Shown: positions 8,397 to 35,621 of the stretch, piece by piece
Position numbering within the stretch: position 1 is the first letter of the stretch
Layout of the letters: each line of letters starts with the position of its first letter
NCBI RefSeq assembly: GCF_000026045.1
Contig: NC_007426.1
Location: forward strand, 1,860,001-1,924,000
Origin: Natronomonas pharaonis DSM 2160
GTDB lineage: Archaea; Halobacteriota; Halobacteria; Halobacteriales; Haloarculaceae
Reading direction: 5' to 3'
DNA length: 64,000 nucleotides
The notes under the pieces: model-generated
Told to the model about the DNA's origin: nothing
The model's database searches: none
What the model saw: only the letters and a program-made list of their open reading frames with translations
Made by a program: the position numbers and the translations under genes

Positions 8397-8551
8397 GAAT
8401 ATATGAATTACATACCAGTCACAAAAAGATAGTGACGCATTCTAATGTCAGAAACTAGGTATCAAACCATCCCCGGTAGACATAAGTGCATTCTCTTTGG
8501 AGGTTAGAAGTATCCTCACGATCAACAGATACCTATCCTAACCTCCAACAA
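8397..8551. promoter_or_regulatory. Divergent intergenic control region with long inverted repeat
   Basis: This AT-rich region separates the leftward AddB-like gene from the rightward SNF2 helicase. It holds a perfect 11-bp inverted repeat, TTGGAGGTTAG at 8497-8507 and CTAACCTCCAA at 8538-8548, that ends three bases before the helicase ATG at 8552. Nested inside is a second pair, GTATC (8509-8513) and GATAC (8529-8533). A smaller pair, GTCAC (8418-8422) and GTGAC (8432-8436), lies near the leftward start. The large repeat could be an operator or a 5' RNA hairpin that hides the start codon. Confidence 0.6.
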
Positions 8552-11428
8552 ATGAGTTCACAACTTCCATCAAATATCCAGCCCGGTTCTGTAGTAGAAA
8601 ACCGCAATCGACTGTGGAGAGTTGACGCTGTTGACGGAAATGTAGTCACCGCAACTCCTCTCGATGGGAACACGGCTGACAGACACCGATTCTATACGCC
8701 TGTCGAAAATATCGAAGAAGGAAGTCTCGAACCACCAGACCCGAAGAAGCTCGGCAACCCAGAGTTTCAGCGCTTGTTGAATCGGGCCTATCGGCTTTCG
8801 ATGCTACACGGGACGGCCCCACTCGTGAGCCTCCAGCGATCACGAGTCATCCCAACTGAGTACCAGCTTACACCGGTCGTGATGGCACTCGATATGCCTC
8901 GTGTCCGGATGCTGCTGGCGGACGACGTGGGACTCGGGAAAACAATCGAGGCGGGTCTCATCACGAGCGAGCTTATGGCTCGCAACAAGGCTGATCGAAT
9001 CCTCATCATCACTCCCGCGAATCTCCGAGAACAATGGCGTGAAGCGTTCAACTACTTCTTCCACATCGATGCTGACATCATCAGCCGTCGCCACCGGAAG
9101 GCGATGGAAAAGGAGATCCCACCGGGGACCAGTCCATGGGAGCACTTCTCGAAGCTGATCGTCAGCATCGACTATGCCAAGCAGAACAGCGTTCGGCACG
9201 AGATTCTGGATCAGGACTGGGATCTCGTGATTATCGACGAGGCACACCAAGCGGCGAAGCCTCACGAATCCGGGGCGAATGAAACGGTCGATATGCAGCG
9301 CTGGGACTTTGCGACCGAAATCACCGACCACGCCGAGCACTGTCTCCTCCTGACGGCGACGCCTCATAACGGTTACACGGATTCATTTGCCAGCTTGATC
9401 CGGATGCTTGATGTCGACGCTGTCTCCGGTCCTCGACACGATCCTACCATCCACCGTGACATCGCCCAGAGACACGTCGTACAACGACGACGAGACGATG
9501 TCAAACAATGGTTCTCCGATAGCGATGGGCAGAGTCCCTTCCCAGAACGTGATCAAGATGAGGTTCGGGTCACACCCACGGAGTACGAACAGGAAACGTA
9601 CGACGCCGTCCGAGAGTACGGTGAACTGCTGATGTCCTCCGCTCAGCGTTCCAGTTCCAAGAGCCAGACGCTGGCCCGGTGGTCGGTCATCCATTTCCTC
9701 AAGCGAGCGCTGAGCAGTCCCGAAGCCCTCCGACAGTCCCTGAAGAACCGCCAAGACAAGCTCGAAGACCGGTTAGAGGACCTAGACGAGGAAGACACGC
9801 AAACCGTGATCGAGGAGACAGCCGGGATCTCTGAGTCGATGGCGCAGGCGAATGCACTCGACGACGATCCCGGCGAAGAGTACAGTGAAGAGGAAGTCGG
9901 GGAACGAGTCGAACGAGTCGTCACCGGCGATAAGGCGGCTATCGAACGAGAGCTGGACGTTCTCGAAAACGTCGCAGAGAAGGCAGAACGAGTCACGAAA
10001 ACCCGAGACGCAAAGCTACAACGACTCCTCGATGAAACACTCCCCAACCGGTTCCAGTATCCCCGTGTCATCATCTTCACGAAATACGTGGACACGCTGG
10101 AATACCTCGAAGAGCAAATCAAGGACTCTCAGAGCGACGAGACTGAGGTCTTCACGCTCCACGGTTCTTTGAACGAAGCCCAGCGGAAGGAGCGATTCAA
10201 GGAGTTCGAGGACTCCACACGGGGCGTCCTCATCGCCACCGACGTCATCAGCGAGGGGATGAACCTCCAGCACGCCGCAAACCAGATCATCCACTACGAG
10301 CTGCCGTGGAACCCGAACCGGTTGGAACAGCGGAACGGTCGAATCGACCGGTACGGGCAGAAGAACGACGAAGTTGTCATCCGGACGATGGTCGTCGAGG
10401 ATCAGATGGACGTCGCAATCCTCGAAAAGTTGGTCCAGAAAGCGAACAACATCAGGCAGGAGTATGGGTTTTCACCGCCGTACTTCGGCGACGACGAGGG
10501 AATCCTCGAACTCCTCAAAGACGAGGGGATCGACGCCGGCGTTCCACAGGCGACCCTCGAAGAGTTCGGAGGCGGTTCCGCACCAGCAGAGCGTGAGAGT
10601 GCGAGCGTCTTCGACGACCAGACGCTCGACCGGATCAAGTCCGAGTCCTTCTACGGACACACCGAAGTCGGACTGCAAGAGGTTCAGAAGCGACAAGAAG
10701 AGACGCACCAGCGGATCGGCGGTCAGGGAACCTTGGAACAGTTCGTGAAGAGTGCTCTGGACCTGTTCAGTTGCTCGTACGAGATGAACGTCCAAGGTCA
10801 TCTCGACATCAAAATCACCGCTGATCGGCTTCAGGGGCCAGACATCAAGCGTGAGTACGAGGACGTGACGTTCGATCCGAACGAGGCGTCCCAGTCCTCG
10901 GATACGGAGATGCTCGACATCGCCCACCCGCTAGTACAGCGGCTCATTGAAGCCGTCAAGGAAACTGCGTTGACCGACGAGGATCGCTACGGGCGGACAG
11001 CCATACGGGGAACCAACGAAGTGAGCGAGCCAACAGCAGTGTATACAGCACTGGTTCGGTACGTGGCAGACACCAAGCCCGATCCAACGATTATGGAGGA
11101 GTTGGTACAGGTCGGGTTGCCGATCTACGGAGACGAACCGCTCGAACAGGACATCGTCGAGGCGCTGGAGGAAAGCGAAGCCAAACCAGTTCAGCGTACT
11201 TCGATGGAGAAGGAAGACGATCTCAAAGACGCTCTCGGACATGGGGCGTTCGAACAGACGCTACAACGGCGAGCAGAACAGCGGCGGGACAAGATCGTCG
11301 AACAGCGAACGGAGATGCGAGCGGAGCTTGAGAAGTCCGGAAGTGGAAGCTGGCTATCCGGCATTGACGACGTTGAGATTGCGAGTAAAGATCTGCTGAC
11401 AGTCACCGTCTACTACGGGAGCAACTAA
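8552..11428 (+). CDS. SNF2-family helicase, DISARM DrmD-like
   Basis: I choose the ATG at 8552 (MSSQLPSNIQPGSVV), giving 958 residues; the longer frame from 8486 would read through the inverted repeat. It is an SNF2/RapA-type ATPase that by family translocates on double-stranded DNA. Visible motifs: ADDVGLGKTIEAG (Walker A, ~124), IIDEAHQ (II, ~228), LLTATPHNG (III), a coiled charged middle around residues 410-510, and QRNGRIDRYGQ (VI, ~592). The length and the gene directly downstream match class 1 DISARM, in which drmD precedes the methyltransferase gene. Two bases separate its stop from the next ATG. The DISARM assignment is inference from gene order and domains. Confidence 0.87.
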   Translation: MSSQLPSNIQPGSVVENRNRLWRVDAVDGNVVTATPLDGNTADRHRFYTPVENIEEGSLEPPDPKKLGNPEFQRLLNRAYRLSMLHGTAPLVSLQRSRVIPTEYQLTPVVMALDMPRVRMLLADDVGLGKTIEAGLITSELMARNKADRILIITPANLREQWREAFNYFFHIDADIISRRHRKAMEKEIPPGTSPWEHFSKLIVSIDYAKQNSVRHEILDQDWDLVIIDEAHQAAKPHESGANETVDMQRWDFATEITDHAEHCLLLTATPHNGYTDSFASLIRMLDVDAVSGPRHDPTIHRDIAQRHVVQRRRDDVKQWFSDSDGQSPFPERDQDEVRVTPTEYEQETYDAVREYGELLMSSAQRSSSKSQTLARWSVIHFLKRALSSPEALRQSLKNRQDKLEDRLEDLDEEDTQTVIEETAGISESMAQANALDDDPGEEYSEEEVGERVERVVTGDKAAIERELDVLENVAEKAERVTKTRDAKLQRLLDETLPNRFQYPRVIIFTKYVDTLEYLEEQIKDSQSDETEVFTLHGSLNEAQRKERFKEFEDSTRGVLIATDVISEGMNLQHAANQIIHYELPWNPNRLEQRNGRIDRYGQKNDEVVIRTMVVEDQMDVAILEKLVQKANNIRQEYGFSPPYFGDDEGILELLKDEGIDAGVPQATLEEFGGGSAPAERESASVFDDQTLDRIKSESFYGHTEVGLQEVQKRQEETHQRIGGQGTLEQFVKSALDLFSCSYEMNVQGHLDIKITADRLQGPDIKREYEDVTFDPNEASQSSDTEMLDIAHPLVQRLIEAVKETALTDEDRYGRTAIRGTNEVSEPTAVYTALVRYVADTKPDPTIMEELVQVGLPIYGDEPLEQDIVEALEESEAKPVQRTSMEKEDDLKDALGHGAFEQTLQRRAEQRRDKIVEQRTEMRAELEKSGSGSWLSGIDDVEIASKDLLTVTVYYGSN

Positions 11429-11430
11429 CG

Positions 11431-14400
11431 ATGAGTATCGATACATCCTCTACCGACGCCGAAGCCGAATCGAGTTCCAGTACGCCACGAACCGGATCGA
11501 CGACGTTCATCAACACCAGCGGCGGTTTACTCACGGACGAACTGGTGAGCAAGCTCCGCCAGCGTCATTGCGGGGAGTCCGCCGTCCGTCCGGAGACCTT
11601 TGCGTTACCGAACACAGAGCCGCCCGAAGAGGCCGACATCGAAGCGGAGATTGGGGATACGTGGGACATGCTTCGAGAGCGGTGGGACGAGCTCACGATG
11701 GACGAGACGCTGTTCCATATGGACGTCTCGGACGCTCGTACGAAGTGGATCCTCAAGCTGTTCCAGAATCTCGGGTTCGAGCCGGTCTTCCAGCGTGAGA
11801 ATCTCGAAGCAGGCGGCATCGAGGCGAACCTCTCACACAAGGGGTGGCCCGACGGGGAGATCGAAAGCTACGGTGAGATGGAGGGGCGGACGGCTCCGAT
11901 CATTCATACCGTCGAACCAGAACAGAAGCTGGACGAGAAACCGGAGGATGCTCCCCGTGGAGCCAAGAGTCCACACGACACGCTCCAGGAGTTCCTGAAT
12001 GCCAGCGATGAACACGACTGGGCCGTCGTAACCAACGGGCTGACGCTCCGGGTTCTTCGAGATTTCTATCACACATACACCCGTGGGTACGTGGAGTTCG
12101 ATCTGGAGAATATGTTCACAAGCCGGAACTACGGGGACTTCCGGGCACTCTACCGGCTCTGTCACGCCACACGGTTCATCGAGCCGGTCGTCGCCGAGGA
12201 TGAAGACGATGACGTCGAAACCCCGCTGGAGCAGCTGTATCAGGTCGCTCTATCGACCGGGGTCAAGGTCGGCCAAGACCTCCAGTCCAACGTCGTAAGC
12301 GCTATCGAGACGCTGGGAACTGGTCTGCTCAACCAAGAGATTCGAGAATACCTCAAAGAAGGCGGCGAAAAGGAAGCTAAGGAGTACTATCAGGAAGTTC
12401 TCCTCTTAGTGTACCGCCTACTCTTCCTGATGTATGCAGAGCAGCGGGGAATGATGGCTTCCCGTGATAGCCTGTACACCGACGAGTACAGTATCACGAA
12501 CCTTCGGGACAAAGCCGAAACACGCCGAAGCGGAAGTGACCGGAACACCGATCTCTGGCACGGCTTGCAATCCACGTTCCGCCTCGTCGAGAAGGGTGAC
12601 GACGAACTCGGTGTTCCCTGTTACAACGGGATGCTCTTCGACTCAGATCGGCTCGACTGGGTGTCGGAAAGCGAGTGTTCCAACGACGACCTCTTGGACA
12701 CAATCGAAGATCTAACTCTCATCGAACATGAAGGAACTCGACAGCGCATCTCGTACGCTGACCTCGGCGTTGAAGAGATCGGTTCCGTCTACGAAAGCCT
12801 TCTCGAATTCACTCCGAAGCTTGCTACCGAGGTTATTGAACTAGAAGACCGAACGGTCTCGCATGGTGAATTCTATCTTGATGACCGAGGAACCGAGCGG
12901 AAAGAGACGGGGAGCTACTATACAGACCCCGGACTGGTACAGGAACTCGTTCAGAGTTCGCTCAAACCCGTCGTTGAAGATCGCCTCGAAGACGCTACCA
13001 CGACTGACGAGCAGGAAGATGCTCTCCTCGACATCACGGTCTGTGATCCGGCAAGCGGAAGCGGTGCGTTCCTGATCGCCGCCAACAACTTCCTCGCACA
13101 GCGACTCGCACGCATTCGATCTGACAGCAACTATCCACCTGAAGACCAGATACGTAGGGCACGCCGAGACGTCCTACAGCATTGCATCTACGCTGTCGAC
13201 CTCAACCCAATGGCCGTCGAACTGGCCAAGGTCAGCCTGTGGATCAATTCTGCCGTGGAAGACAAACCGCTGAATTTCCTCGATCATCACATCAAGTGCG
13301 GAAACTCCTTGATCGGGACTAACTCGGAACTTCTTGAAGGTGAGTTCCCTGTGGACGCTTACGAAACGTCCGGGGGACGTGACTGGCACGTCGGAAACGA
13401 AATTCGCAAACAAGTCAGAAATGAAAACAAGGAGCGGTCTAAGGGTTCCTCCGAATCGTCGCTGCAACAATGGGGTGCGAGCAAAGAAGAGTATGTAGAT
13501 ATCGCTGAACAACTCGATGAGATTGAAGAAGAAGACACTGAAGATATAAAGAAGAAAAGGCAGCTGTACGACGAACTCCAGCAGTCAGAGGCGTACCAGC
13601 AAGAGAAGTTGGCGCATGATGTCTGGACAGCGGCATTTTATTGGCCAATGGATGGCTCTACGAAGGAATATCCATCTCCGTCCACTATCGAAAAGATTCG
13701 ACGTAACTCAAATCCCGATGACGAAGCGCTTCAGGAGTTGGTAACACAGACTATAGAGATAGCAGAGCAACAACGGTTCTTCCACTGGGAATTAGAGTTC
13801 CCTGAAATATTTAGCGGACACTCATCTGGCTTCGATTGCATTCTTGGAAACCCACCGTGGGAGACATTTGAATTAAAAGATAAGGAGTTCTTTGCCGTGG
13901 AAAAACCCCAAATAGTCGAAGCGGGAACCCCCGCAAAAAGGGAAAAACTAATTGAGCAATTGGAACAGACGGATCCCGATTTGTATGAGAGGTATGAGCG
14001 TGAAAAAAGGTCTCTTGAGTCAGCCTCAAAATTCATCAAGGAGAGCGGGAGGTATATTAGGACAAATAGTGGGAAGACTAGCACACATGGTCCCTTTGCG
14101 GAGCTAGCACTAGATAATATTAGTCCAAATGGGTACTCTGGGATTATTGTACCAACTTCTTTGGTAATGTCATCATCTTCAAAAGACTTTTTCAAAGAAC
14201 TAGTTGAAGATAATAGGCTTATTAAGATATTCGACTTTATAAATACAGGAATCTTTCCAGAGATACATCGAGAATACAAATTCAGCCTTTTGGCGATCTC
14301 AGGCAGTGCAATTGTAAGTGAACAATTTGAGATGGGATTCCATCTGGATGAAATTGAGGGCCTTAGAGATGATGAAAGAATATTTGAAATAACGCCGGAA

Positions 14401-15459
14401 GAGATAGAACTGTTAAATCCGAATACAAAGACATGTCCCACTTTTCGCACAAGGTCTGACGCAGAGCTCACGCTTTCTATCTTCGAGAATGCTGGGGTTT
14501 TCCAGAATGAATCACGTGGAGAGAACCCATGGGGCGTCAATCTAAGAACTCTGTTCCAACGCTCTGGCGATTCAGATCTATTTTCCACTAGTGAAGAACT
14601 GGTAGACGATGGATGTCATCTTGAGAGAAACCGGTTTGTCTGTAATAATGGACAAACATTTCTCCCACTTTATGAGCCAAAATACATTCACCAGTATGAT
14701 AGTACATTTGCGACATATGAGGGGGTTTCGGGAGACCATGAGGATAAGAACCCGAAAGAATTCGCATTGGAACGAAAAGATGATCCAGAGCGTTATATCC
14801 TGCCTCGGTATTGGGTATCAGAAAAGGAATACACGTCAAAGAGCGGCGACGGTTGGCATTTAGCAGTTCGGAATATTACCAAATCTACTAATCGGCGGAC
14901 TGTTATATCTACCATACTTCCAGGAGTTCCAGCTGATCACAATTTCTACATTTTTGAGGATATCGATGCAGATAACTCACTTTTGCTATTAGCTATATTG
15001 AATTCTTATGTCTTGGATTTTGCTGCACGCCAGAAAGTAGACGTCTATATTAGTGCATATACGATCAAGCAATTCCCTATTCCAAGTCCAAATCAGTTTG
15101 AAGAGATACTCTTTAGAGGAGAACCTCTCAAACAAACAATTAGAGATATAAGTTTTAAATTGATGTACAATACCCATTCCCTAGATTCTTTAGCTGAGGA
15201 TCTGGGACACCAAGGTAATCCATATTCGCACTCAGCGCCCGCTGGGGTATCAAGAGAAGAATTACGGTTCAAGCTGGAAGCGCTTATGTTCTATTTGTAT
15301 GGGCTAGATGAAGATCAAATAGACGATATCTTTGGGTCATTTGAACAACTCAAAAAGGAAGAAAAATCCGACCACGGGTACTACCGAACCCGAGAAAAAG
15401 TCAAAAATAAATTCTTGGAACTTCAACCTGACATTGAATATAAACGGGGGCAAATATAA
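11431..15459 (+). CDS. Eco57I/DrmMI-type N6-adenine DNA methyltransferase
   Basis: This 1342-residue protein is expected to transfer a methyl group from SAM to adenine in host DNA. Motif I is DPASGSGAFLI (~538) and motif IV is the adenine-specific NPPW (GNPPWE, ~806). The ~500-residue N-terminal region resembles the extension seen in large Eco57I/DISARM enzymes. The C-terminal part, from about 13.8 kb to 15.4 kb, should contain the target recognition domain. It is strikingly AT-rich, with codons such as ATA, AAA and TTA that are rare in neighbouring genes, which suggests exchange of the specificity region. The stop overlaps the next ATG (TAATG). It sits between the DrmD-like and DrmAB-like genes, as in class 1 DISARM. 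Whether it also restricts DNA is not visible. Confidence 0.88.
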   Translation: MSIDTSSTDAEAESSSSTPRTGSTTFINTSGGLLTDELVSKLRQRHCGESAVRPETFALPNTEPPEEADIEAEIGDTWDMLRERWDELTMDETLFHMDVSDARTKWILKLFQNLGFEPVFQRENLEAGGIEANLSHKGWPDGEIESYGEMEGRTAPIIHTVEPEQKLDEKPEDAPRGAKSPHDTLQEFLNASDEHDWAVVTNGLTLRVLRDFYHTYTRGYVEFDLENMFTSRNYGDFRALYRLCHATRFIEPVVAEDEDDDVETPLEQLYQVALSTGVKVGQDLQSNVVSAIETLGTGLLNQEIREYLKEGGEKEAKEYYQEVLLLVYRLLFLMYAEQRGMMASRDSLYTDEYSITNLRDKAETRRSGSDRNTDLWHGLQSTFRLVEKGDDELGVPCYNGMLFDSDRLDWVSESECSNDDLLDTIEDLTLIEHEGTRQRISYADLGVEEIGSVYESLLEFTPKLATEVIELEDRTVSHGEFYLDDRGTERKETGSYYTDPGLVQELVQSSLKPVVEDRLEDATTTDEQEDALLDITVCDPASGSGAFLIAANNFLAQRLARIRSDSNYPPEDQIRRARRDVLQHCIYAVDLNPMAVELAKVSLWINSAVEDKPLNFLDHHIKCGNSLIGTNSELLEGEFPVDAYETSGGRDWHVGNEIRKQVRNENKERSKGSSESSLQQWGASKEEYVDIAEQLDEIEEEDTEDIKKKRQLYDELQQSEAYQQEKLAHDVWTAAFYWPMDGSTKEYPSPSTIEKIRRNSNPDDEALQELVTQTIEIAEQQRFFHWELEFPEIFSGHSSGFDCILGNPPWETFELKDKEFFAVEKPQIVEAGTPAKREKLIEQLEQTDPDLYERYEREKRSLESASKFIKESGRYIRTNSGKTSTHGPFAELALDNISPNGYSGIIVPTSLVMSSSSKDFFKELVEDNRLIKIFDFINTGIFPEIHREYKFSLLAISGSAIVSEQFEMGFHLDEIEGLRDDERIFEITPEEIELLNPNTKTCPTFRTRSDAELTLSIFENAGVFQNESRGENPWGVNLRTLFQRSGDSDLFSTSEELVDDGCHLERNRFVCNNGQTFLPLYEPKYIHQYDSTFATYEGVSGDHEDKNPKEFALERKDDPERYILPRYWVSEKEYTSKSGDGWHLAVRNITKSTNRRTVISTILPGVPADHNFYIFEDIDADNSLLLLAILNSYVLDFAARQKVDVYISAYTIKQFPIPSPNQFEEILFRGEPLKQTIRDISFKLMYNTHSLDSLAEDLGHQGNPYSHSAPAGVSREELRFKLEALMFYLYGLDEDQIDDIFGSFEQLKKEEKSDHGYYRTREKVKNKFLELQPDIEYKRGQI

Positions 15460-18400
15460 TGAGTTCCCGTCTCAACCCCTTCGACGCCCTCGATAACGTC
15501 CAATCCTCCTATCGGTCCTACGTCGAGACGTTCCAGAACGTCGACGACGAGACAATCAACGCTTGGATTGAGAACCGCATCGAGACGGGAAAGGTACTGT
15601 GGAAGGAACCGTTCGTCCAACTGAATCAACGCTTCAAGTACGGCGACACCCTCGAAGAGTTCGTTGCGGACGATAAACTCCACGAGGGTATTCTGGACGT
15701 CTTCACCGGTGCTAGCGGCGATCCTATTGAGCCGTACAAACACCAGACTGAGGCGATTCAGTCGATCCAAGCTGGGAACAACACAATCGTCTCCACGGGC
15801 ACGGGGTCAGGGAAGAGCTTCGCTTTCGGCATTCCCATCGTCAGCCACTGTCTCGAAGCCAAAGAGCGGGGTGAGGATGGGATCAAGGCGGTCATCATCT
15901 ATCCGATGAACGCTCTGGCGAACTCCCAGTACGAAGACTTCGCAGAGCGACTTGATGGAACAGGCCTCCGGTTGGGACTCTACACGGGTGACACGCCATA
16001 CAACCCTGACGAAGCACCTGAGTTCCTCCGGCAGTTTGGTCGTGAGGAGGCGTTCGACTCCGAAGTCGTCTCTCGGGAGGAGATGCAGAACGACCCGCCG
16101 GACATCCTGATGACGAACTACGTCATGCTCGACCTCATTCTTACCAGGCATGACGACAAGAAGCTCTTCCCAGAGATGCACGAGGGAGTCCTACAGTATC
16201 TGGTCCTTGACGAGATTCACACCTACACCGGCCATCAGGGAGCCGACGTCGCCGCACTCGTCCGCCGGCTGAAGCAGAATACCGACGCCGGAGAGGAACT
16301 CGTCTGTGTCGGTACCTCTGCGACGGTCCAGAGCGACGAAGGAATCAACGCCAACGACGAGATCGCCGAATTCACCGGGAAGATCTTCGGCGAAGAGGTT
16401 GACGCCGACAACGTCGTTCGGGAGTCTCACTATCCGCTGCCCCTCTCCGACGACGAACCGCTCCCTGAGGACATCGAAGTCACCGAGGAAGACATCGCAA
16501 CCTTCGACGGGAGTCTCGAAGCCGCACAGGATCTCACCGAGAAACTCCTCGACCGGGATCTGATGCCAGCCGAGACGACCGATGCGTCGGCACTCGGGAA
16601 TGCGCTGGAGGATCACCCCACGATCAAGTTCCTCGACGAAGAGCTTAGCTCCCAGAGCCAGCAGATCTTCGCTGGCGAGGACGACGAAAGCGAAGACGGG
16701 AAGGATCTCGTCAGTAGCTATCAGGAACAGTACCGACCCGATGCATCTCGGTACGACATCGAGCAAGAACTCCAAGCCGCTCTGCTCGTCGGAACGGTTG
16801 GAACGACCGAGATACAGGGCGAGGAACAGCCGATTTTTATCCCGAAGCTCCACACCTTCTTCAGTCAGGGCAGTGGTCTCGTCTCCTGTCTTACCGAGGA
16901 GTCCTTCGAGGACGACGATCCCCACCTGAGTGACGCCGGCGACATCGAGTGTCGTACGTGCGCCCAAGAACACGACCGTACTCGGACTGCCTACCCACTC
17001 TCGTTCTGTCGGGGATGTGGTCAGGAGTATTACACCACCGTCGTCGATCAAGAGAAAAACGTCACACAGGGTGCGCTGAGTACCTTTGTGGACACCGAAG
17101 AGGACGAAGAGGAGGCGTACCTGATGCGGGGCGATTGGGACCGAGAAACCGCTCCCCTCCCCGATGAGTGGCTGAACGACAACGGGCAGCTTCGAGACAC
17201 CTACGTCGAGGCTGAACCCCGACCAGCTACCTATTGCCCGGAGTGCGACCAGCTTACCCCCGGACGAGTGGAACAGGGGCAGCTCGAATGTGGATGCTTC
17301 GCTGCGCAGGGCGTCGAGGTGATGCGAGTCAACCAGCCGTTCCTGTTCTGCCCAAACTGCGGGGTTCACTACACTCGTCGGGTCAAGAACGAGTTCAACA
17401 AGCTGTTCACGTTCGGGACGGTCGGTCGTTCGACGGCGACGGACGTTCTCATCGGGAACACGATGCGGAACCTCCCTGACGACCAGCAGAAGACTATCGC
17501 CTTCTCTGACAATCGACAGGATACTGCATTACAGGCGGCTCACCTCAACAACCTCTACCAGCGGGTTCGATTCCGACGCTCGCTGTACCATACCCTCGCA
17601 GAGGGCGACGACGTTAGCCTCACTACGCTCGGGAACGACGTCTTCGACCTCCTCGATGACGAGGAAGCCCTTCCGCCAGCCATAGACACGGGAATGTTCG
17701 GGCCGTCGGCGGAGGACCGTCAGAACTACAGCGACTATCTGCTGTTCAACACCATTCTCGAACTCGGTCGTGAACAGCAACGCACCCAGCAGAGTCTCGA
17801 AGACGTCGGGCTGATCGACGTCGAATACGAGAACCTCGATAAGCTGGCGGACGTCGATGATGTCTGGGACTCGATCCCCGTGCTTTCGAATGCAGATCCA
17901 ACGGTGCGGGAAGAGTATGTCCACGGCTTCTTGGACATCTTCCGCCGGAGTATTGCGATAGACCACGAGAGCACCACCAACTTCACCGATTTCAAGCGGA
18001 ACGTCATCAACCAACTCGACGAAGAGGTCCATTTCCACGGCCAGGAGTTCTTCAACTTCCCAGTCGGATACAGTGATACGGCAAGTACTAGTGGGAGACA
18101 CCGTGTCCGTCGCCTCACACATCCTCGCTCTCGACACGTCCGTTGGACAGCCCGTGCGTTAGACGTTGACACCGATACTGCGAAAGCGATCATCAACAGC
18201 GTCATCGACCTCATCAGCGACGACGAGGTACTCAAGCTGTTGACGCAGGAATCGCTGAAGTACACCGGGAAGGTGTATATGCTCAACCACAGTGCGATTC
18301 GGGTCACGCACGCCGATCCCGAGGACGTGCGAGTCTGCCCGAAGTGTGGAACACCGACGACTCGGGATGAACTCGACGTCTGTCTGAACTACAGCTGCGA

Positions 18401-20762
18401 CTCGATCACGCCCGAGGAGACGGATCTCGAATCGTCCTACTTCTACGATCTCTATACCGAATCGTTCGACGACGCCGTCGACATCATCGCCGGCGAACAC
18501 AGCGGTCAGGTTGAGAACGAGAAGCGGAAGCAACTGGAGTCGGACTTCCGAGAGGGCGAGAAGGTGAACACCATCGTCTCGACGCCGACGATGGAACTCG
18601 GGATCGACATCGGTGACCTCTCAAACGTTTATATGCGAAACGTCCCGCCGAACCCGAGTAACTACGCTCAGCGTTCCGGGCGAGCCGGGCGACAAAACCA
18701 GCCGTCACTCGTCACGACGTTCTGTGGCCGTGGGTTCGGACGTGGCTCCCACGACCAGTACTTCTACCGAAACCCGGAACGAATCATTGCTGGGGAGATC
18801 AGCCCGCCGACGTTCCTGCTCAACAATCAGGATCTGGTTGAGGCGCACATCAACGCTCTCGTTCTCGAACAGATCGAACTGAAATTCCAGAGCAAGCCCC
18901 GCCAGATGCTGGTCATCGAGGAGGGGAGCGACTACGAGATTATGCCCGATTATCGGGCAGATCTGGAGGACGCCGTCAAGAACAACCGACAGAAGATCAT
19001 TCAAGCGGTGAAGCAAGCGTTCGCCCGTGAGCGTGAACAGGATACCGTCGGAGAGTGGTTCACGGATGCCTTCATCGAGCGCCAGGTGGACAACTTCGTC
19101 GAGAATCTCGATGAGGCATTCGAGCCATGGCGGCGTGAGTACACTCGCCTGAGTCGTGAACTGCGGCGCTTGAACCAACTCCTCGCCACAGAAGGAGGAT
19201 CGTATCAGGATCGGATCGAGCGCAACGCCATCGAGGACCGTCTTGAGGATATGCGTTCGGGGAAGAAACGCTTCTACACGTATCAGTACCTCCGCTCACA
19301 GGGATTCTTGCCGAACTACGGATTCCCCAGACAGAGTACGACGCTAACGTTCACTTCCCGGGAAGACGACATTCAGCGGGATCAAACACGGGCTATCAGC
19401 GAATTCGCACCCGGAAACCACGTTTATTACGCTGGGGAACGGTTCGCTGTTCGGTATGCTCGACCTCGCACGGAGGATGCGGAGCCGGTTACCCGTCATC
19501 TTCGTGTCTGCCCGGAGTGTGAAACCATCCTGATGGGAGAAGACGCACAGGAGGCCGCAGCGTGCCCCTCTTGTGAGATGTCCTTCGATGGGACCCATCC
19601 GAATCCGAATGCGATGGAACTCCCGAATCAACACGCTCGGCCGGAGGAGTACATCACCAGTGACGAGGAGGAACGTCGTCGGCAGGGGTACGAGATCAAC
19701 AGCTACTACGAACGATCCGATCCCCAAGCATACGACCTAGAAGGAAACGGAATCGAGGCCCGAGTGACATACGAAGGGAGTGCGAATATTGTCTTGGTCA
19801 ATAGCGGGCTTCGAGATGCTGACGAAGACGATCTCAACGGATTCGCTCTCTGTATGGAGTGTAACCGCTGGCTAACTAGCGAGGACCAAATCGAGAGTCA
19901 CGTCGACGAAGACGATCCGGATTGCTATGCTAATGCGTCAGAGGAAGCGATCAAGCGTGAGATAGAGTTGTTCTCTGAGGGACAGCACGACACGGTGACA
20001 CTGACAACGCCACTCCCCAGCGATCTTGAGCCTGAGCAGACTGAAGAATTCTATCGAACCCTCAAGGAGACCGTCTATCAGGGAATTCTGGTTGCGTTCG
20101 ATCTGGACGAGGAAGAGATCGACACGTTCGTGAAACCAGCGACAGGGGAACACGGACAGGTCACCATCGTAATCTACGAAACCAGTGAGGGCGGCGCAGG
20201 TGTGCTTCACTCGCTGATGGACGAAGCACGCTTCAGAAAAGCAGTTCGGGAGGCACAGACCGTCCTCCACGGGGATCCCGATGACGATGGTTGCGAGCGA
20301 GCGTGCTATGAATGTCTCCTATCCTTCTACAACCAGCCGGAACACGAGTTCCTCGATAGAACACTCGTTGATTCGTGGTTAGGGAACATGGAAACTGCGA
20401 CCCTGACAGAAGTCGCTGGAACGAGTAAAGATAGAGATTACGAGAACTTCGACGAGCTACTGGAAGCTTGCGACTCCAGCTTCGAGCGTGAAGTCCTTCA
20501 CGCTATTCGAGGTCAAGGCTTCGAGCTTCCCGATGAGGCACAGAAAATTATTTATGACGGTGACGAGCCAGTCGCAAAGCCAGATTTCTTCTACGAACGA
20601 CCAGGTAGATCGATCGCAGTATTCGTCGATGGGCCCGCCCACGAGAAAGATTACGTTAAAGAAGATGACAAACGCAAGCGAGCTAGACTCAAACAGATGG
20701 GATATCGAGTTGTTCCGGTGTCAGATATTAACCAAGTTCCTGAGTTATTAGAAAGTATATAA
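15459..20762 (+). CDS. Giant DEAD/DEAH helicase fused to zinc modules, DUF1998 and VSR-like nuclease (DrmA-DrmB-like fusion)
   Basis: The protein has 1767 residues. A superfamily 2 helicase core shows Walker A STGTGSGKS (~113), LVLDEIHTYTG (~250) and QRSGRAGR (~1070). Several Cys4 clusters interrupt or follow it: CRTCAQ...CRGCGQ, CPECDQ...CPNCG, CPKCG...C and CPECE...CPSC. A DUF1998 region follows (~1570-1630) with YETSEGGAGVLHSL and C-x3-C-x2-C (CERACYEC). The C-terminus (~1669-1754) resembles a VSR/DUF559 nuclease: SSFEREVLHAI, KPDFFY, VFVDGPAHE. In DISARM, the DrmA helicase and DrmB (DUF1998) are separate proteins and DrmC is a PLD nuclease; here one chain carries helicase, DUF1998 and a different nuclease. 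A 100-bp gap follows, so the operon may break here. Confidence 0.88.
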   Translation: MSSRLNPFDALDNVQSSYRSYVETFQNVDDETINAWIENRIETGKVLWKEPFVQLNQRFKYGDTLEEFVADDKLHEGILDVFTGASGDPIEPYKHQTEAIQSIQAGNNTIVSTGTGSGKSFAFGIPIVSHCLEAKERGEDGIKAVIIYPMNALANSQYEDFAERLDGTGLRLGLYTGDTPYNPDEAPEFLRQFGREEAFDSEVVSREEMQNDPPDILMTNYVMLDLILTRHDDKKLFPEMHEGVLQYLVLDEIHTYTGHQGADVAALVRRLKQNTDAGEELVCVGTSATVQSDEGINANDEIAEFTGKIFGEEVDADNVVRESHYPLPLSDDEPLPEDIEVTEEDIATFDGSLEAAQDLTEKLLDRDLMPAETTDASALGNALEDHPTIKFLDEELSSQSQQIFAGEDDESEDGKDLVSSYQEQYRPDASRYDIEQELQAALLVGTVGTTEIQGEEQPIFIPKLHTFFSQGSGLVSCLTEESFEDDDPHLSDAGDIECRTCAQEHDRTRTAYPLSFCRGCGQEYYTTVVDQEKNVTQGALSTFVDTEEDEEEAYLMRGDWDRETAPLPDEWLNDNGQLRDTYVEAEPRPATYCPECDQLTPGRVEQGQLECGCFAAQGVEVMRVNQPFLFCPNCGVHYTRRVKNEFNKLFTFGTVGRSTATDVLIGNTMRNLPDDQQKTIAFSDNRQDTALQAAHLNNLYQRVRFRRSLYHTLAEGDDVSLTTLGNDVFDLLDDEEALPPAIDTGMFGPSAEDRQNYSDYLLFNTILELGREQQRTQQSLEDVGLIDVEYENLDKLADVDDVWDSIPVLSNADPTVREEYVHGFLDIFRRSIAIDHESTTNFTDFKRNVINQLDEEVHFHGQEFFNFPVGYSDTASTSGRHRVRRLTHPRSRHVRWTARALDVDTDTAKAIINSVIDLISDDEVLKLLTQESLKYTGKVYMLNHSAIRVTHADPEDVRVCPKCGTPTTRDELDVCLNYSCDSITPEETDLESSYFYDLYTESFDDAVDIIAGEHSGQVENEKRKQLESDFREGEKVNTIVSTPTMELGIDIGDLSNVYMRNVPPNPSNYAQRSGRAGRQNQPSLVTTFCGRGFGRGSHDQYFYRNPERIIAGEISPPTFLLNNQDLVEAHINALVLEQIELKFQSKPRQMLVIEEGSDYEIMPDYRADLEDAVKNNRQKIIQAVKQAFAREREQDTVGEWFTDAFIERQVDNFVENLDEAFEPWRREYTRLSRELRRLNQLLATEGGSYQDRIERNAIEDRLEDMRSGKKRFYTYQYLRSQGFLPNYGFPRQSTTLTFTSREDDIQRDQTRAISEFAPGNHVYYAGERFAVRYARPRTEDAEPVTRHLRVCPECETILMGEDAQEAAACPSCEMSFDGTHPNPNAMELPNQHARPEEYITSDEEERRRQGYEINSYYERSDPQAYDLEGNGIEARVTYEGSANIVLVNSGLRDADEDDLNGFALCMECNRWLTSEDQIESHVDEDDPDCYANASEEAIKREIELFSEGQHDTVTLTTPLPSDLEPEQTEEFYRTLKETVYQGILVAFDLDEEEIDTFVKPATGEHGQVTIVIYETSEGGAGVLHSLMDEARFRKAVREAQTVLHGDPDDDGCERACYECLLSFYNQPEHEFLDRTLVDSWLGNMETATLTEVAGTSKDRDYENFDELLEACDSSFEREVLHAIRGQGFELPDEAQKIIYDGDEPVAKPDFFYERPGRSIAVFVDGPAHEKDYVKEDDKRKRARLKQMGYRVVPVSDINQVPELLESI

Positions 20763-20862: not shown

Positions 20863-21780
20863 ATGTCAACAGTTGATCGTGCCCCAGGCATACTGTTGGG
20901 ATTAGCGTGTGGTGACGCACTTGGCCGTCCAGTCGAGTTCCGCTCTGCAACCCAGATCAAACGAGAGTTCGGCCAGTTGGACGAGATGATCGGAAACGGA
21001 ACGCACAAGCAACCAGCCGGTACGATCACCGACGATACAGAGCTCGCGTTACGGATTGCGCGCAGCTTGGTCGAACAGAAAGAATTCGACGGAGCCGACG
21101 TTGCCGAACGATTCGTCGAGTGGTACCGGAGTGGTCCGTTCGACATCGGACTGATGACAGCTGATGCCCTCCAGCGGATTGAAAACGGGATGCTGTGGGA
21201 CGAGGCTGGTCAAGAAGTCTGGGAGGAGCGACCCGAAGGTCAGAATGCAGGCAACGGCAGCGTCATGCGCTGTGCTCCCTATTCCATCGCCTTCTCCGAA
21301 GATCCAGACCAACTCCTCTCTGTGAGTAAAGCATCGTCCCGAATCACCCATGCGGATCCACGCTGTACCTACGGCTGTGCGGTCCTGAACCTCACGCTGG
21401 CTGGACTACTCCACGGGGAAGACGAACCGCTCAGGAGGGCACTGAATCGCGTTCGATCTGAAGCACCGGAGGAACTCGTCGAAGCACTTGATCCAGTAGC
21501 GAAGGGAGCATCGATCGATACACTCCGGAACTCGGGCTACGTAATTCACTCGCTACAAACCGCGCTTCACGATGCTTTCGCAGCTGACAGCGCAGAAGAG
21601 GCGATCGTGACGGCTGTCAATCGAGGCGGTGATACGGATACGATCGGGGCGATCACGGGCGCAGTTGCCGGCGCTCGATTTGGAGCTGGTGGTCTCCCCG
21701 ATCGATGGCTTGAGACGATAGACGAGCGCGAAGAGCTGATCGATCTGGCGTTGGAACTTCACGAGATCTCCACCTCATAA
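20863..21780 (+). CDS. ADP-ribosylglycohydrolase family protein
   Basis: This 305-residue protein belongs to the DraG/ARH fold, whose members remove ADP-ribose from proteins or small molecules using two Mg2+ ions. The metal-binding signatures are visible: GLACGDALG near the N-terminus, TITDDTEL (~55), NAGNGSVMRC (~128) and NRGGDTDTIG near residue 254. The length is normal for the family. It lies inside the defence array, 100 bp after the giant helicase and about 95 bp before the phosphoesterase gene. I find no ADP-ribosyltransferase in the window. It could reverse a modification made by a virus or host enzyme, or cleave a nucleotide signal; the substrate is unknown. A TATA-like TTTAAAA lies at about 20790. 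Confidence 0.9.
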   Translation: MSTVDRAPGILLGLACGDALGRPVEFRSATQIKREFGQLDEMIGNGTHKQPAGTITDDTELALRIARSLVEQKEFDGADVAERFVEWYRSGPFDIGLMTADALQRIENGMLWDEAGQEVWEERPEGQNAGNGSVMRCAPYSIAFSEDPDQLLSVSKASSRITHADPRCTYGCAVLNLTLAGLLHGEDEPLRRALNRVRSEAPEELVEALDPVAKGASIDTLRNSGYVIHSLQTALHDAFAADSAEEAIVTAVNRGGDTDTIGAITGAVAGARFGAGGLPDRWLETIDEREELIDLALELHEISTS

Positions 21781-21875
21781 GAGATACATTCGCAGTCGGG
21801 CGTCATCCTTCAACAGAGGCGGATGAACGTATACCAAATGATTCATCACACTCTCGGTAAGTGACTTGTAAACGA

Positions 21876-23201
21876 ATGACTGTCCGGTTCCTCCATACAG
21901 CGGACCTGCATCTGGGAAGCCAACTCAAAACTCAGCATCGGCAAGCGACCGGAACGATTGAAACGCTTGATTCTGCCATCTACACCGCGGTTGAACGGCT
22001 CTTCGATACGGCGATTGAGGAAGACGTCGATTTCGTCGTAATCGCCGGTGACCTCTATGATGAGGACTCTCGGAGCGTCAAGGCGAACACGTTTCTGAAA
22101 GAGCAGTTCGACCGGCTTGCGGATCAAAACATCCCAGCCTACGTCTCCTACGGCAACCACGATCCTGTCGGGAGCGCAACGACCTACGTTGATCTCCCTG
22201 ACAACGTCTACGAATTCGATCACGAGGATCCGCAGGAATTTTACTATCCTGATGAGGATACGCCAGAGGCTCGAATCTGGGGCCAATCCTATCGCGACCG
22301 CCACGAAAGCCGCTCGATGTACCACCGATTCACGCCGGCTGACGAGCGGGTCCCGAACATCGGCGTTCTTCATACAGGATTGAATCCCGATGGCCGGCGG
22401 TACGTCCCGGTCGCACGCAGTGACCTCGAAAGCAAAGACGAGATCCACTACTGGGCGCTCGGGCATATCCACGATCCACGTATCTACGAGAACGAACAGC
22501 CAATCGCGTATTCAGGTGTCCCGCAAGGTCGCCAGATCACGGAACCCGGATTCGGTGGAGCGTATCTCGTTGAACTCGACGCTGAAGGCGACTACGAAAT
22601 CGAGTTTGTCCCGACGAGCCCGGTCATCTGGCAGACCGTCGAAGTCGACATTGGGGACGACGACATTTCCTCAATTCCAGATATTGAGCGTCGAATCGAG
22701 CAGACCCTCGACGAGTTCTCCGCGCCGACTGAGCTGTTCGATGGTACCAGCGTCGCCGTTCGCGATGCCGAGTGGGGAATCGATGGCTACGTTTGCCGAT
22801 GGAAACTGACCGGGAACGGGCCAGTTCACGAGACGCTGTCGAGTGACGACGAAGCTATCCACGAACTCACTCGACGGCTCCGAGACGGACTGACCTCGCG
22901 ACGGCCATTCGTCTGGACCGAGGCCGTTCGGGACGAAACCGGACCACCGATTCCATCTATCGACGAGCTCCGTGGTAACGATCGGGTGATTGACGAGTAT
23001 ATCGCTTTCATCGACGAACTCGACGAAGTAGACGCCCGAGAACGCTACCGTGAGGAAGTCGGCATGGTCTGGGAATCCGTCGAGGACCACGAAGAAGGAC
23101 GGCCAGACGAGCTGTCTCTTACTGACGAACAGCTTGACAATCTCATCGAGCGCGCACAGGAGCGTGTACTCGAGGAATTGGCACGACGGAGGGCGACATA
23201 A
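21876..23201 (+). CDS. Mre11/SbcD-family metallophosphoesterase, YhaO-like
   Basis: Read from the ATG at 21876 (MTVRFLHTADLHLG), 441 residues; a GTG at 21861 is an alternative. Calcineurin-like phosphoesterase motifs are complete: TADLHLG (DxH), AGDLYDED (GDxxD), YGNHDP (GNHD) and LGHIHDP (GxH). It should be a Mn2+-dependent exo/endonuclease. The next gene starts one base after its stop and encodes a Rad50-like ATPase with a membrane hairpin. That makes the pair most like Bacillus YhaO/YhaN rather than the archaeal Mre11/Rad50 repair pair. Residues after ~270 would bind the ATPase partner. Its location in the array suggests a role against invading DNA. Confidence 0.88.
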   Translation: MTVRFLHTADLHLGSQLKTQHRQATGTIETLDSAIYTAVERLFDTAIEEDVDFVVIAGDLYDEDSRSVKANTFLKEQFDRLADQNIPAYVSYGNHDPVGSATTYVDLPDNVYEFDHEDPQEFYYPDEDTPEARIWGQSYRDRHESRSMYHRFTPADERVPNIGVLHTGLNPDGRRYVPVARSDLESKDEIHYWALGHIHDPRIYENEQPIAYSGVPQGRQITEPGFGGAYLVELDAEGDYEIEFVPTSPVIWQTVEVDIGDDDISSIPDIERRIEQTLDEFSAPTELFDGTSVAVRDAEWGIDGYVCRWKLTGNGPVHETLSSDDEAIHELTRRLRDGLTSRRPFVWTEAVRDETGPPIPSIDELRGNDRVIDEYIAFIDELDEVDARERYREEVGMVWESVEDHEEGRPDELSLTDEQLDNLIERAQERVLEELARRRAT

Positions 23202-23202
23202 C

Positions 23203-26082
23203 ATGTATCTCAACGAACTACGAATTGACGATTTCGGGTGCTTCCGAAACGCACGGCTCGACAACCTCGATGACCGCCTCATCGTCATTGGCGGCCCACA
23301 GCGGGCCGGCAAGACAACATTCATGCAGGCGCTCCGGCAGTTCCCGAACGGCGTCAGTCGGGGCGGCGATCTCCCACCTGCGACCGACGAGTATCGGATT
23401 GATGCTGAACTCACACACGAGGGGGAGCGCTACCGATACGTACTAAATGGGCACGCAAGTCCCTCTATCTCTCCGATCGGTGACGGGCAAAATATCGATG
23501 CTGGGGATATCTTTGGGCCCGTCACGGAACGGCAGTACAGAAATCTCTATACAATCAGTCTCGACGAGCTTCGACGACTGCCGCCAGGGATTGATGACTC
23601 GGAAGATCTGGCCCGCGTATTACTCGGTGGCGCATACGGTGATATCGCCGAAATCCCGGAAATCGAGGAATCATTCAACGATCGAGCGTACGACATCGGG
23701 TTGTCGAGAGGGGATCCAAGTACCACATCCTCCGAACTCAACGATCCATATCGAACGATTCGCGAGGGGATCGAAGCCAGAAAAGAGGCAAGCCAGCAGG
23801 TCGACGAATACAGGTCAGTAACTCAGAAACTCGAAGACAAGCGATCGGAGCAATCCGATCTTGAAGATGAAATCGCCCGCAGACAGCAGATTCGGGACCG
23901 GCTGAATATTCTCAAGGAGTTGTTCGATCCACTCCAACAACTTGAGACGTTGAACGCCCAACTCGAAGATGTCGACCTGGATGCAATCGACGACTTCCCA
24001 ACACATCTGGCGGATCGATTGGATCATTTCGAAGAGCAGTTCCAGACGGCCACGACAGATCTCGCTGAAGCACGACGGGAGTTCGACCAGAATGCAACAT
24101 TCGATACGACAGACGAGTACTACGAGTGGCTCCTTGAGCACGAGACGGAGATCGATTCCCTCACCGAGGATCAAAAGCTGTGGGCCAGAACTGCCGAAGA
24201 ACTCGTCGAGAGTGAGGAGTCTCTCGAAGAGAACCGGCGAGACATCGAACGTGAGATAGCGTCTCTGCATTCGGAGTGGGGCGAATCATTCACGCATATT
24301 GACGAGATAGAAACGAGCGCCGTCGACACAGCCCGAGTTGCCGACGTAGCCTCCACGATCGAGGATCTGCGGACGGAACGGAGTGATTTGAAGGCCTCTA
24401 TTGATTCAGCACAGACACGGAAGCAGGAACTTGAGTCACAGCTGGAGGGGATGGAAGAAGAACACGAAGAAACCAGGGAGATCACCGTTCCGAAGCAAAA
24501 ACCGGCGATCGTAGCTGGTGTTGCAATCGTAGTCGGAACGGGCGTTGGATTTGCGGCCACGCCTCTCGTTGGCGGGGTTGTTGGGCTCGTCGTCCTCGCA
24601 GTTGGCCTATACGCGACTGATTCAACGGTTACCGTCGAAACGACCGTTGATGCTGATCCGTATCGCGAACTCAAAGGCCAGGTGGCGACACTCGATGGCG
24701 ATCTTCAGGCCGATTCAGAGCGACTTACAGAACTCGACGATCAGATCGAGGAAAAGCAGTCGGAACTCACTGAACTCGTCACCGAGTTGGGCCTTCCGGA
24801 AGCGCTTCCGGCAAGCGAGGTTCCTGAGTTCTACAAACAAGTCGTCGAACTCGATGACGAAATCGCAGCCTATCGCGAGAAGCAAACGGAGTGGGAAGAA
24901 GACAAAGAGAATTTTGCCTCCGATATCGAAGATGTCGCGACACTACTCGACGACGTGGCTGACTTTTCATGGGCGGCTGAAGAGCCCCTAGAAGACGCCG
25001 ACAAGGTGCTGGCCATGCTCGAAGCGGTCGCTGCCGATCTCGAACTAGCACGGGATGTCCGACGTGCCGAACGGGATCGAACCGAGTGTATCGAGGACAT
25101 TGATGACGTCCTGACGGAGTGGGACGAAGATCAGTCGATCGATCAAGAGACTGACGACGAAGACATCCTCGAATATATCCAGGCGTTCAACGACGAGGCC
25201 GAACGGATCAGCGAACTTCAGGAAACAGTCGAGGAACGTGATCGGATTGAAACCCAGGTCACCAGTCGGCTAGAGAATGAGTCAGCTCGAGAGGCGTTCG
25301 AGCCGCTTCAGGAGGACGACGAACCGTGGATCGATGTCGTTCGCAATGTCGCTACCGAGTACGCCGACACAGATGCGATTGCAGACGAGATTCGCAACGA
25401 AAAGAGACAGATCGAGGAGTTGGAAGCCAAGCGTGACGAGTTGCACGAGGATTGTATCGAACTTGAACAGCGACAGGAAGATCTCGCCTCGGAAGAAGAT
25501 CTCCGGGAAGCACGAGGGAAGATCGAGGAAGGACGGGTCGAATTCGAGAGACTCGGGGAGGCCTATGCGGTTAATCGAATCGCCGAAACGATGGTCAAAC
25601 AGCTCCACGAGCGACTGATGGAAGATATCGTTCATTCCCTTGTCGACGATGCGAGCGATATTTTCAGAGAGATAACCCAAGAGTACGAGGGTATCGAACT
25701 CGATGGTGATGTCCAGAGCCTCGATTTCCGAGCGCTTCGCGAGGATAACCATGACCATGGCGTCGGCGAGTTGAGTCGCGCAACCGCTGAACAACTCTTC
25801 CTTGCCGTCCGGCTGGCACGGATCCAGCAAACGGACGTGTCACTTCCCGTCGTGCTGGACGACGCCGCGACGAACTTTGATCCAAATCATATGAGTCGTG
25901 TCTTCGAGGTCATCGACCAGCTAACGGCGTCGAATCAGGTGTTCTTCCTCACGTGTCATCCGCAATGTGTCCGAATAACTGCGTCGAACGATCTTTCTGC
26001 ACAGTACTGGTCACTCAACAGTGGGCGATTCACTCGCCGTGAAACTGCCGATACATTAGAACAGCAGCTTTCGGCGGATTGA
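23203..26082 (+). CDS. Rad50/SbcC-like AAA ATPase with central membrane hairpin, YhaN-like
   Basis: I take the ATG at 23203 (MYLNELRIDDFGCFRN), 959 residues; upstream codons in the same frame belong to the preceding gene read in another frame. The N-terminus has a P-loop variant (GPQRAGKTT, ~31-39). Two long coiled-coil arms flank a hydrophobic pair of segments (~434-473, KPAIVAGVAIVVG... and VVGLVVLAVGLYA), where Rad50 would have its zinc hook. The C-terminus has a signature-like GVGELSRATAEQL and Walker B LPVVLDDAATNFD. Membrane segments between the coils are the hallmark of YhaN-type proteins. It is coupled to the YhaO-like nuclease. Whether the complex is membrane-anchored cannot be shown from sequence alone. 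Confidence 0.87.
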   Translation: MYLNELRIDDFGCFRNARLDNLDDRLIVIGGPQRAGKTTFMQALRQFPNGVSRGGDLPPATDEYRIDAELTHEGERYRYVLNGHASPSISPIGDGQNIDAGDIFGPVTERQYRNLYTISLDELRRLPPGIDDSEDLARVLLGGAYGDIAEIPEIEESFNDRAYDIGLSRGDPSTTSSELNDPYRTIREGIEARKEASQQVDEYRSVTQKLEDKRSEQSDLEDEIARRQQIRDRLNILKELFDPLQQLETLNAQLEDVDLDAIDDFPTHLADRLDHFEEQFQTATTDLAEARREFDQNATFDTTDEYYEWLLEHETEIDSLTEDQKLWARTAEELVESEESLEENRRDIEREIASLHSEWGESFTHIDEIETSAVDTARVADVASTIEDLRTERSDLKASIDSAQTRKQELESQLEGMEEEHEETREITVPKQKPAIVAGVAIVVGTGVGFAATPLVGGVVGLVVLAVGLYATDSTVTVETTVDADPYRELKGQVATLDGDLQADSERLTELDDQIEEKQSELTELVTELGLPEALPASEVPEFYKQVVELDDEIAAYREKQTEWEEDKENFASDIEDVATLLDDVADFSWAAEEPLEDADKVLAMLEAVAADLELARDVRRAERDRTECIEDIDDVLTEWDEDQSIDQETDDEDILEYIQAFNDEAERISELQETVEERDRIETQVTSRLENESAREAFEPLQEDDEPWIDVVRNVATEYADTDAIADEIRNEKRQIEELEAKRDELHEDCIELEQRQEDLASEEDLREARGKIEEGRVEFERLGEAYAVNRIAETMVKQLHERLMEDIVHSLVDDASDIFREITQEYEGIELDGDVQSLDFRALREDNHDHGVGELSRATAEQLFLAVRLARIQQTDVSLPVVLDDAATNFDPNHMSRVFEVIDQLTASNQVFFLTCHPQCVRITASNDLSAQYWSLNSGRFTRRETADTLEQQLSAD

Positions 26083-27134: not shown

Positions 27135-27149
27135 ACTTGAAAAGTAGTA

Positions 27150-27185
27150 TCGACTATGCAATAGTTGCAACGACGTCGACTATGC
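27150..27185. repeat. 10-bp direct repeat in the divergent promoter region
   Basis: TCGACTATGC occurs at 27150-27159 and again at 27176-27185, 26 bp start to start, about two and a half helical turns. It lies between the NucS-like and GHKL genes and could bind a regulator of both. No known motif is recognised. Confidence 0.45.
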
Positions 27186-27228
27186 CGGACAACTTTGATA
27201 AGAGTCCTCTTTGTTGCTTCCTGTATTA

Positions 27229-35406: not shown

Positions 35407-35621
35407 CAGCTTGATTTGTGGATACTCCACAACACTCTTCCCGGCGTGTGAATTCCGAGACGGAGCGAGCGGAGCGAGCTGTCTTTGACATACTAACGAC
35501 TAACCGACACTTCTTTCAGGTCCCTTCTATCCCGCATATACTGCAGATAGAGGGGATTACTGGTATCGAAGTAATGGAGGAGGGGGCTTCCCCTTTGACA
35601 GTTGTTGTGGAGCCGCCACAG

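Follow-up and report, generated by a model that had tools for sequence, protein, structure and literature searches.

Three genes on the forward strand of Natronomonas pharaonis DSM 2160, armA, armB and armC, form a real, intact and well-conserved operon that is almost certainly an ARMADA type I system, and the target-recognition half of its armB gene has been replaced as a block. They lie at positions 8552-20762 of the 64,000-nucleotide stretch analysed here, which we call the window. The explanation that we judge best overall, and likely to be right, is that of a haloarchaeal ARMADA type I anti-virus operon in which ArmB would mark DNA and ArmC would cut it.

Three adjoining genes with intact catalytic motifs

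Over this span the window contains three long open reading frames arranged head to tail on the + strand. The first, armA (8552..11428, +), encodes a BrxHII/DrmD-like SNF2 helicase of 958 aa counted from the ATG at 8552 (Pfam, PADLOC). Its frame is open from 8486 (8486-11428); since the homologue alignments begin at the conserved ATG at 8552, this codon is most likely the start. It is followed by armB (11431..15459, +), coding for a gamma-class N6-adenine methyltransferase of the PglX/DrmMI/MmeI type (1342 aa), and by armC (15459..20762, +), coding for a YprA-family helicase-nuclease of 1767 aa. A 2-base gap separates armA from armB, and armB overlaps armC by 1 base. Because full-length homologues are found in bacteria down to 29-33% identity, the conservation goes far beyond chance.

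The Pfam calls confirmed the domains originally predicted, namely a SNF2 helicase, an Eco57I-type methyltransferase, and a helicase with DUF1998 on one chain. ArmA matched SNF2 (5e-14) and Helicase_C (7e-23), ArmB, an Eco57I/MmeI methyltransferase, matched Eco57I (3.5e-23), and ArmC matched DEAD (1e-24), Helicase_C (5e-14) and MZB/DUF1998 (5e-10). The proposed kinship of the first two genes with DrmD and DrmMI was also borne out, these being the best PADLOC matches of ArmA (4e-133) and ArmB (3e-101), respectively. The catalytic motifs of ArmA are visible in the sequence, and those of ArmB (a SAM motif, DPASGSGAF, at residue 539 and NPPW at 807) and of ArmC are intact. A single-sequence PDB search with ArmB gave no match at 1e-3.

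An ArmC match at 1e-40 was present in 16 of the 391 Halobacteria genomes sampled. A complete armC with armA and armB adjoining on the same strand was found in 13 of the 391; of the other three matches, one is truncated where its contig ends, one is a remnant and one is a distant relative. A search of the same 391 genomes with ArmA recovered exactly these 13, at 63-100% identity (62-98% for the homologues at the complete armC loci), the next match being at 35% or less, and no close ArmA occurred without ArmC. The three genes thus travel together, and the claim that they are one unit holds by their co-occurrence across haloarchaeal genomes as well as by their junctions. Such co-occurrence had been expected of a DISARM set devoid of separate drmA, drmB and drmC genes; the three genes do co-occur, but the system that they form is ARMADA and not DISARM. 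Homologues are found on many plasmids, and a close copy of the operon lies on plasmid PL100 of the cultured strain Haloquadratum walsbyi C23. ARMADA also occurs on contigs classed as viral; a scan of IMG/VR contigs gave 11 loci (L091-L101) with type I-like and type II-like ArmC helicases.

Architecture of ArmC

The RecA1 domain of ArmC (15636..16433, +) carries the Walker A motif TGTGSGKS and a DEIH box, and MrfA was the best Foldseek match of the N-terminal model. The RecA2 core (18411..18788, +) carries motif VI, QRSGRAGR, and the MZB/DUF1998 zinc domain (20073..20318, +) forms the end of an MrfA/DrmB-like canopy. In the N-terminal model, which is of low confidence (pLDDT 62.5), residues 343-469 are helical; ARMADA I is reported to have a helical BrxA-like insert behind RecA1. 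The best relatives by sequence in the PDB were two helicases of about 2000 residues (9tu7, 9wae) and MrfA, the top match being a DEAD helicase of 2108 aa, a DruE-like length. A DrmB-like region was sought structurally and was present, the model of residues 1086-1767 (pLDDT 69) matching MrfA at 8.5e-9 and DrmB of DrmAB at 4.4e-5 (Foldseek). This DrmB-like canopy is real, yet it is ordinary YprA-family architecture; members of that family are normally one chain, DISARM being the exception that is split (PMC12458937). The count of five Cys4 zinc clusters was approximately right: four full sets exist (498/501/517/520, 593/596/611/613, 960/963/975/980 and 1351/1354/1369/1372), and the remainder are CxxC pairs (631/634, 1465/1468) and DUF1998 cysteines (1612/1616/1619). 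Most of the zinc-cluster cysteines are kept in distant homologues.

The last 110 or so residues of ArmC, within which the Vsr-like nuclease domain falls (20421..20759, +), are moderately conserved. An alignment of ArmC from haloarchaea, Deinococcota, Cyanobacteria and Actinomycetota (six proteins) showed S1673, E1676, D1709-F1710, D1724-G1725, H1728 and D1737 to be invariant throughout. The Pfam families MTES_1575 and DUF559 match the domain of the window weakly, below their curated cut-offs; DUF559 exceeds its own in the homologues from cyanobacteria and actinomycetes. A canopy-nuclease profile weakly matched 3r3p (E 0.014), which we take to be the catalytic domain of I-Bth0305I, a Vsr-related homing endonuclease. 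The invariant E-D-DG-H-D residues and these weak matches uphold the prediction of a C-terminal VSR/DUF559-like nuclease. Its presentation as a new replacement for DrmC has to be dropped, as a predicted active Vsr nuclease is already described as the C-terminal domain of ARMADA ArmC (PMC12458937). The C-terminus of the window ArmC is a predicted Vsr-type nuclease of the same kind as in ARMADA type I.

Assignment to ARMADA type I

ARMADA, described in 2025, is defined by a BrxHII-like helicase, a PglX-like methyltransferase and a YprA-like helicase; type I was reported in archaea, and the BrxHII-PglX-YprA order in many archaea and cyanobacteria (PMC12458937). The window has this gene set in this order, with ArmA and ArmB before ArmC, just as archaeal ARMADA I is described. 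In a RecA-core tree, the window ArmC grouped with the bacterial ARMADA I ArmC proteins of Nocardioides, whose operon has armC first, and Chroococcidiopsis (96/94); E. coli ArmC lay in a separate type II clade (97/100), and DruE3 and DrmA also stood apart. The full-length tree agreed (99/100); the ArmC trees have a small reference set and some long branches. Altogether, membership of ARMADA type I is shown by the domains, by the genes present and their order, by the phylogeny and by strict co-occurrence. We found no essential difference between the operon and ARMADA type I, with which it shares a BrxHII-like ArmA, a PglX-like ArmB, and a YprA-like ArmC bearing an OB-CON-DUF1998 canopy, zinc modules and a C-terminal Vsr nuclease. 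ARMADA type II (E. coli ATCC 8739, NCTC 12900) has the same gene order and the same three gene families, but it also has ArmD, a GajB-like UvrD with a RelE domain, and its ArmC of about 2100 aa carries extra C-terminal domains and falls in a separate clade; no ArmD counterpart is present at the locus, which fits type I. BREX PglX/BrxX resembles ArmB as a gamma-class N6 methyltransferase with a C-terminal recognition region, but its partners are others, and neither BrxC nor PglZ nor BrxL was seen among the flanking genes scanned.

The original prediction had been a class 1 DISARM variant with DrmA and DrmB fused and DrmC replaced by another nuclease. The gene order does fit class 1 (drmD-drmMI-drmA-drmB), the first two genes match DrmD and DrmMI best, and the ArmC canopy fold resembles DrmB. 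The long protein is nevertheless far nearer DruE and ArmC than DrmA: its best PADLOC models were DruE3, DruE1 and DruE2 (9e-129 and weaker), far above DrmA (2e-14), and by BLAST at 1e-3 it matched E. coli DruE3 and ARMADA-II ArmC, the DrmA and DrmB pair of Nocardioides JS614 giving no match at this threshold. A single plasmid of this strain bears both DISARM drmA-drmB and, separately, an ARMADA I operon, so that DISARM and ARMADA I are distinct systems. ArmA scored 474 against the NCBIfam DrmD model, under the cut-off of 610, and the genome of N. pharaonis has no DrmA besides helicase-core matches. Class 1 DISARM also differs in having helicase and canopy as two proteins, a distant helicase lineage and a separate PLD nuclease, DrmC; no PLD nuclease gene adjoins the operon. 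Profile ranks, BLAST and trees thus contradict a DrmA-DrmB fusion, which moreover runs the wrong way, and we give the DISARM variant next to no credence.

That the system is Druantia, with the long protein as DruE, is barely more credible. DruE is the nearest PADLOC profile, the top PDB match is of its length, and type III DruE is likewise a single-chain YprA-lineage helicase with a DUF1998 canopy. The PADLOC 2023 matches, however, include no ARMADA model, so that DruE is simply the nearest one available; E. coli DruE3 falls outside the clade, and the nuclease motif is missing from its aligned region. Type III DruE differs in its PLD-type nuclease, its partner DruH and the lack of a methyltransferase, and the partners in the window are ArmA and ArmB instead of DruH, DruM-F-G or DruA-D. 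We rejected Druantia as the nearest profile only, since its type-specific partners do not fit. BRIGADE, a hybrid Dpd/ARMADA-like system reported from halophilic archaea only (PMC12458937), is as improbable as the DISARM variant despite the same helicase clade and host group. It needs 7-deazaguanine synthesis genes, none of which was found among the flanking ORFs scanned; the flanks hold UvrD, PD-(D/E)XK, ADP-ribosylglycohydrolase, metallophosphatase and SMC-like genes instead, and on this ground BRIGADE was rejected. It usually has a second YprA helicase (the N. pharaonis genome contains only two further helicase matches, both smaller, in frames of 861 and 964 aa), and its nuclease is separate, whereas that of the window is fused to ArmC.

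The recognition half of armB is exchanged

The operon was compared with those of four close relatives, G291, Halorussus marinus, Halorientalis regularis and Haloquadratum walsbyi C23. ArmC is 92-97% and ArmA 92-98% identical to theirs, and residues 1-720 of ArmB are 85-94% identical, compared with only 32-41% for residues 840-1342. At the nucleotide level (blastn), an identity of 82-94% ends at 13706-13905 and returns at 15453-15468; between these edges, two relatives each show a lone match of 41 bp, and there is nothing else. The exchanged segment (13905..15467, +; blastn, AU test), which is the target-recognition half of armB (residues ~825-1342), has a GC content of 0.35-0.47 as compared with 0.55-0.60. 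The two armB halves give conflicting trees: a recognition-half tree constrained to unite the four closest relatives was rejected (p-AU 4.5e-5), as was one with Haloquadratum added to the constraint (p-AU 2.7e-101). The AU test thereby rejects a history common to the recognition half and the remaining operon; the half has been replaced, with sharp edges. In BREX PglX the corresponding C-terminal half reads the DNA motif for methylation and defence, and we regard the exchange as the strongest sequence evidence here that ArmB may set sequence specificity.

A second complete armB (1339 aa) lies in tandem between armA and armB at one locus (L065, G390:C28). Both genes are intact and their recognition halves differ (about 48% identical). 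No spare recognition halves stored in the armB-armC gap were found, and the complete second armB of G390 is the only one.

Genes between armB and armC

The armB-armC interval measures 0 to 5.4 kb across the haloarchaeal loci. Genes for a TATA-binding protein (TBP; PF00352, 1e-15 to 1e-34) occur in it, one to three per locus, in G291 (3 copies; L047/L048), Halorussus marinus (L049), Halorientalis regularis (2; L051) and G166 (L057). At G194 (L070), a distant ARMADA-like locus, a TBP gene stands directly before armC, and a decayed one is present on Haloquadratum C23 PL100 (record 94591-94830); the armB-armC junction of the window has none. Because the sampled genomes hold few TBP genes each, we judge this recurrence in so small an interval to be well above chance, although four of the loci are close kin. 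The TBP genes mostly accompany one class of armB recognition half. At another locus (L055, G050, 9260-14612), armB and armC are set apart by an insertion of 5.4 kb that contains three long ORFs (348, 584 and 761 aa), among which an OLD-like and a GHKL-type ATPase were recognised by eye.

The passages of PMC12458937 consulted report TBP with TALON only, and relative to them two things are new: the replaced recognition half of armB and the TBP genes at the sister loci. We tentatively propose, at a little under even confidence, that haloarchaeal ARMADA I keeps its helicase/nuclease machine nearly constant and swaps a specificity cassette, made of the 3' half of armB with or without TBP or other genes before armC, which would give each lineage its own self-mark. 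TBP would then be an archaeal accessory linking ARMADA to the TBP-containing systems TALON and TOTE.

Genomic setting

Divergent from armA, the segment 2933-8396 (-) encodes an AddAB-like pair made up of a UvrD helicase with PD-(D/E)XK and another PD-(D/E)XK protein. This pair recurs 3 kb after armC in G050 (53% and 46% identity) and at no other haloarchaeal locus, and was rejected as an operon component. An ADP-ribosylglycohydrolase gene (20863-21780) follows armC; it was rejected as a fourth component, being absent beside all other haloarchaeal armC loci, from which the SMC, metallophosphatase and other flanking genes are missing as well. Right after it come a metallophosphatase gene and an SMC-like ATPase gene that overlap and make up an SbcCD-like pair (21861-26082, +). 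The next gene (26094-27170, -; 358 aa) matches the PADLOC candidate family PDC-S11 (8.5e-35) and, weakly, NucS_C. The protein of 2005 aa encoded at 27211-33228 (+) has no Pfam match and a full-length PADLOC match to TmtA (1.5e-204), and is a candidate for a second defence gene of the island. An MCM helicase gene and a tyrosine integrase-like gene lie at 33376-37725 (-). The GC content of the window is 0.44-0.59 until about 46 kb and 0.63-0.68 thereafter; the low-GC region with its integrase-like gene looks like an integrated element or island.

Discussion

The operon probably recognises and destroys foreign DNA. The most likely function is a restriction-like defence in which ArmB would supply the recognition sequence and ArmC would act as a helicase-nuclease. 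As to the mechanism, we favour with some reserve a methyl-mark scheme in which ArmB has the double role of marking and reading a motif, ArmA serves as translocase or remodeller, and DNA that lacks the mark is unwound and cut by ArmC. ArmB would methylate adenine at a short host motif picked by its C-terminal recognition half, so that host sites are marked. ArmA, a SNF2 translocase, would survey DNA with ArmB, and unmarked sites on incoming DNA would activate ArmC; the latter would translocate on single-stranded DNA by means of its RecA core and zinc-rich canopy, and its C-terminal Vsr-like nuclease would cut. DruE, which is related to ArmC, is an ATP-dependent helicase-nuclease on ssDNA-containing DNA. 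In E. coli ARMADA II, non-abortive defence depends on all four genes, on the Walker motifs of ArmA and ArmC, and on the NPPW of ArmB; no nuclease-domain mutant is among those in the experimental section of PMC12458937. The anti-phage activity in the literature is that of type II in E. coli; for archaeal ARMADA and for type I, neither phage nor methylation data were found, and self-recognition by methylation is never stated in PMC12458937 (no occurrence of "methylat").

The same operon could obey another logic, in which ArmB is a sequence-reading sensor or loading platform with no self-marking and ArmA and ArmC respond to DNA ends or replication intermediates. The partial activity kept by the SAM-motif mutant of E. 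coli ARMADA II ArmB (PMC12458937) is in its favour, as is the action of DruE on long ssDNA-containing DNA without strong sequence preference. Loss of the NPPW motif, however, abolished ARMADA II defence (PMC12458937), and if ArmB marks self, an exchange confined to its recognition half is just what one would expect. We therefore consider the sensor logic unlikely, though worth keeping in mind, and retain methyl-marking by ArmB. With the recognition half swapped from lineage to lineage, the motif protected and attacked should differ even where the machines are otherwise almost identical.

These results remove a claimed new form of DISARM and place the operon in ARMADA, of which only type II, in E. 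coli, has been tested to date. The system itself is already described; the exchangeable recognition half and the TBP genes are parts of specialist interest. Nature provides near-isogenic machines with scarcely any difference outside the recognition half of armB, and these offer a handle on how ARMADA may tell self from non-self.
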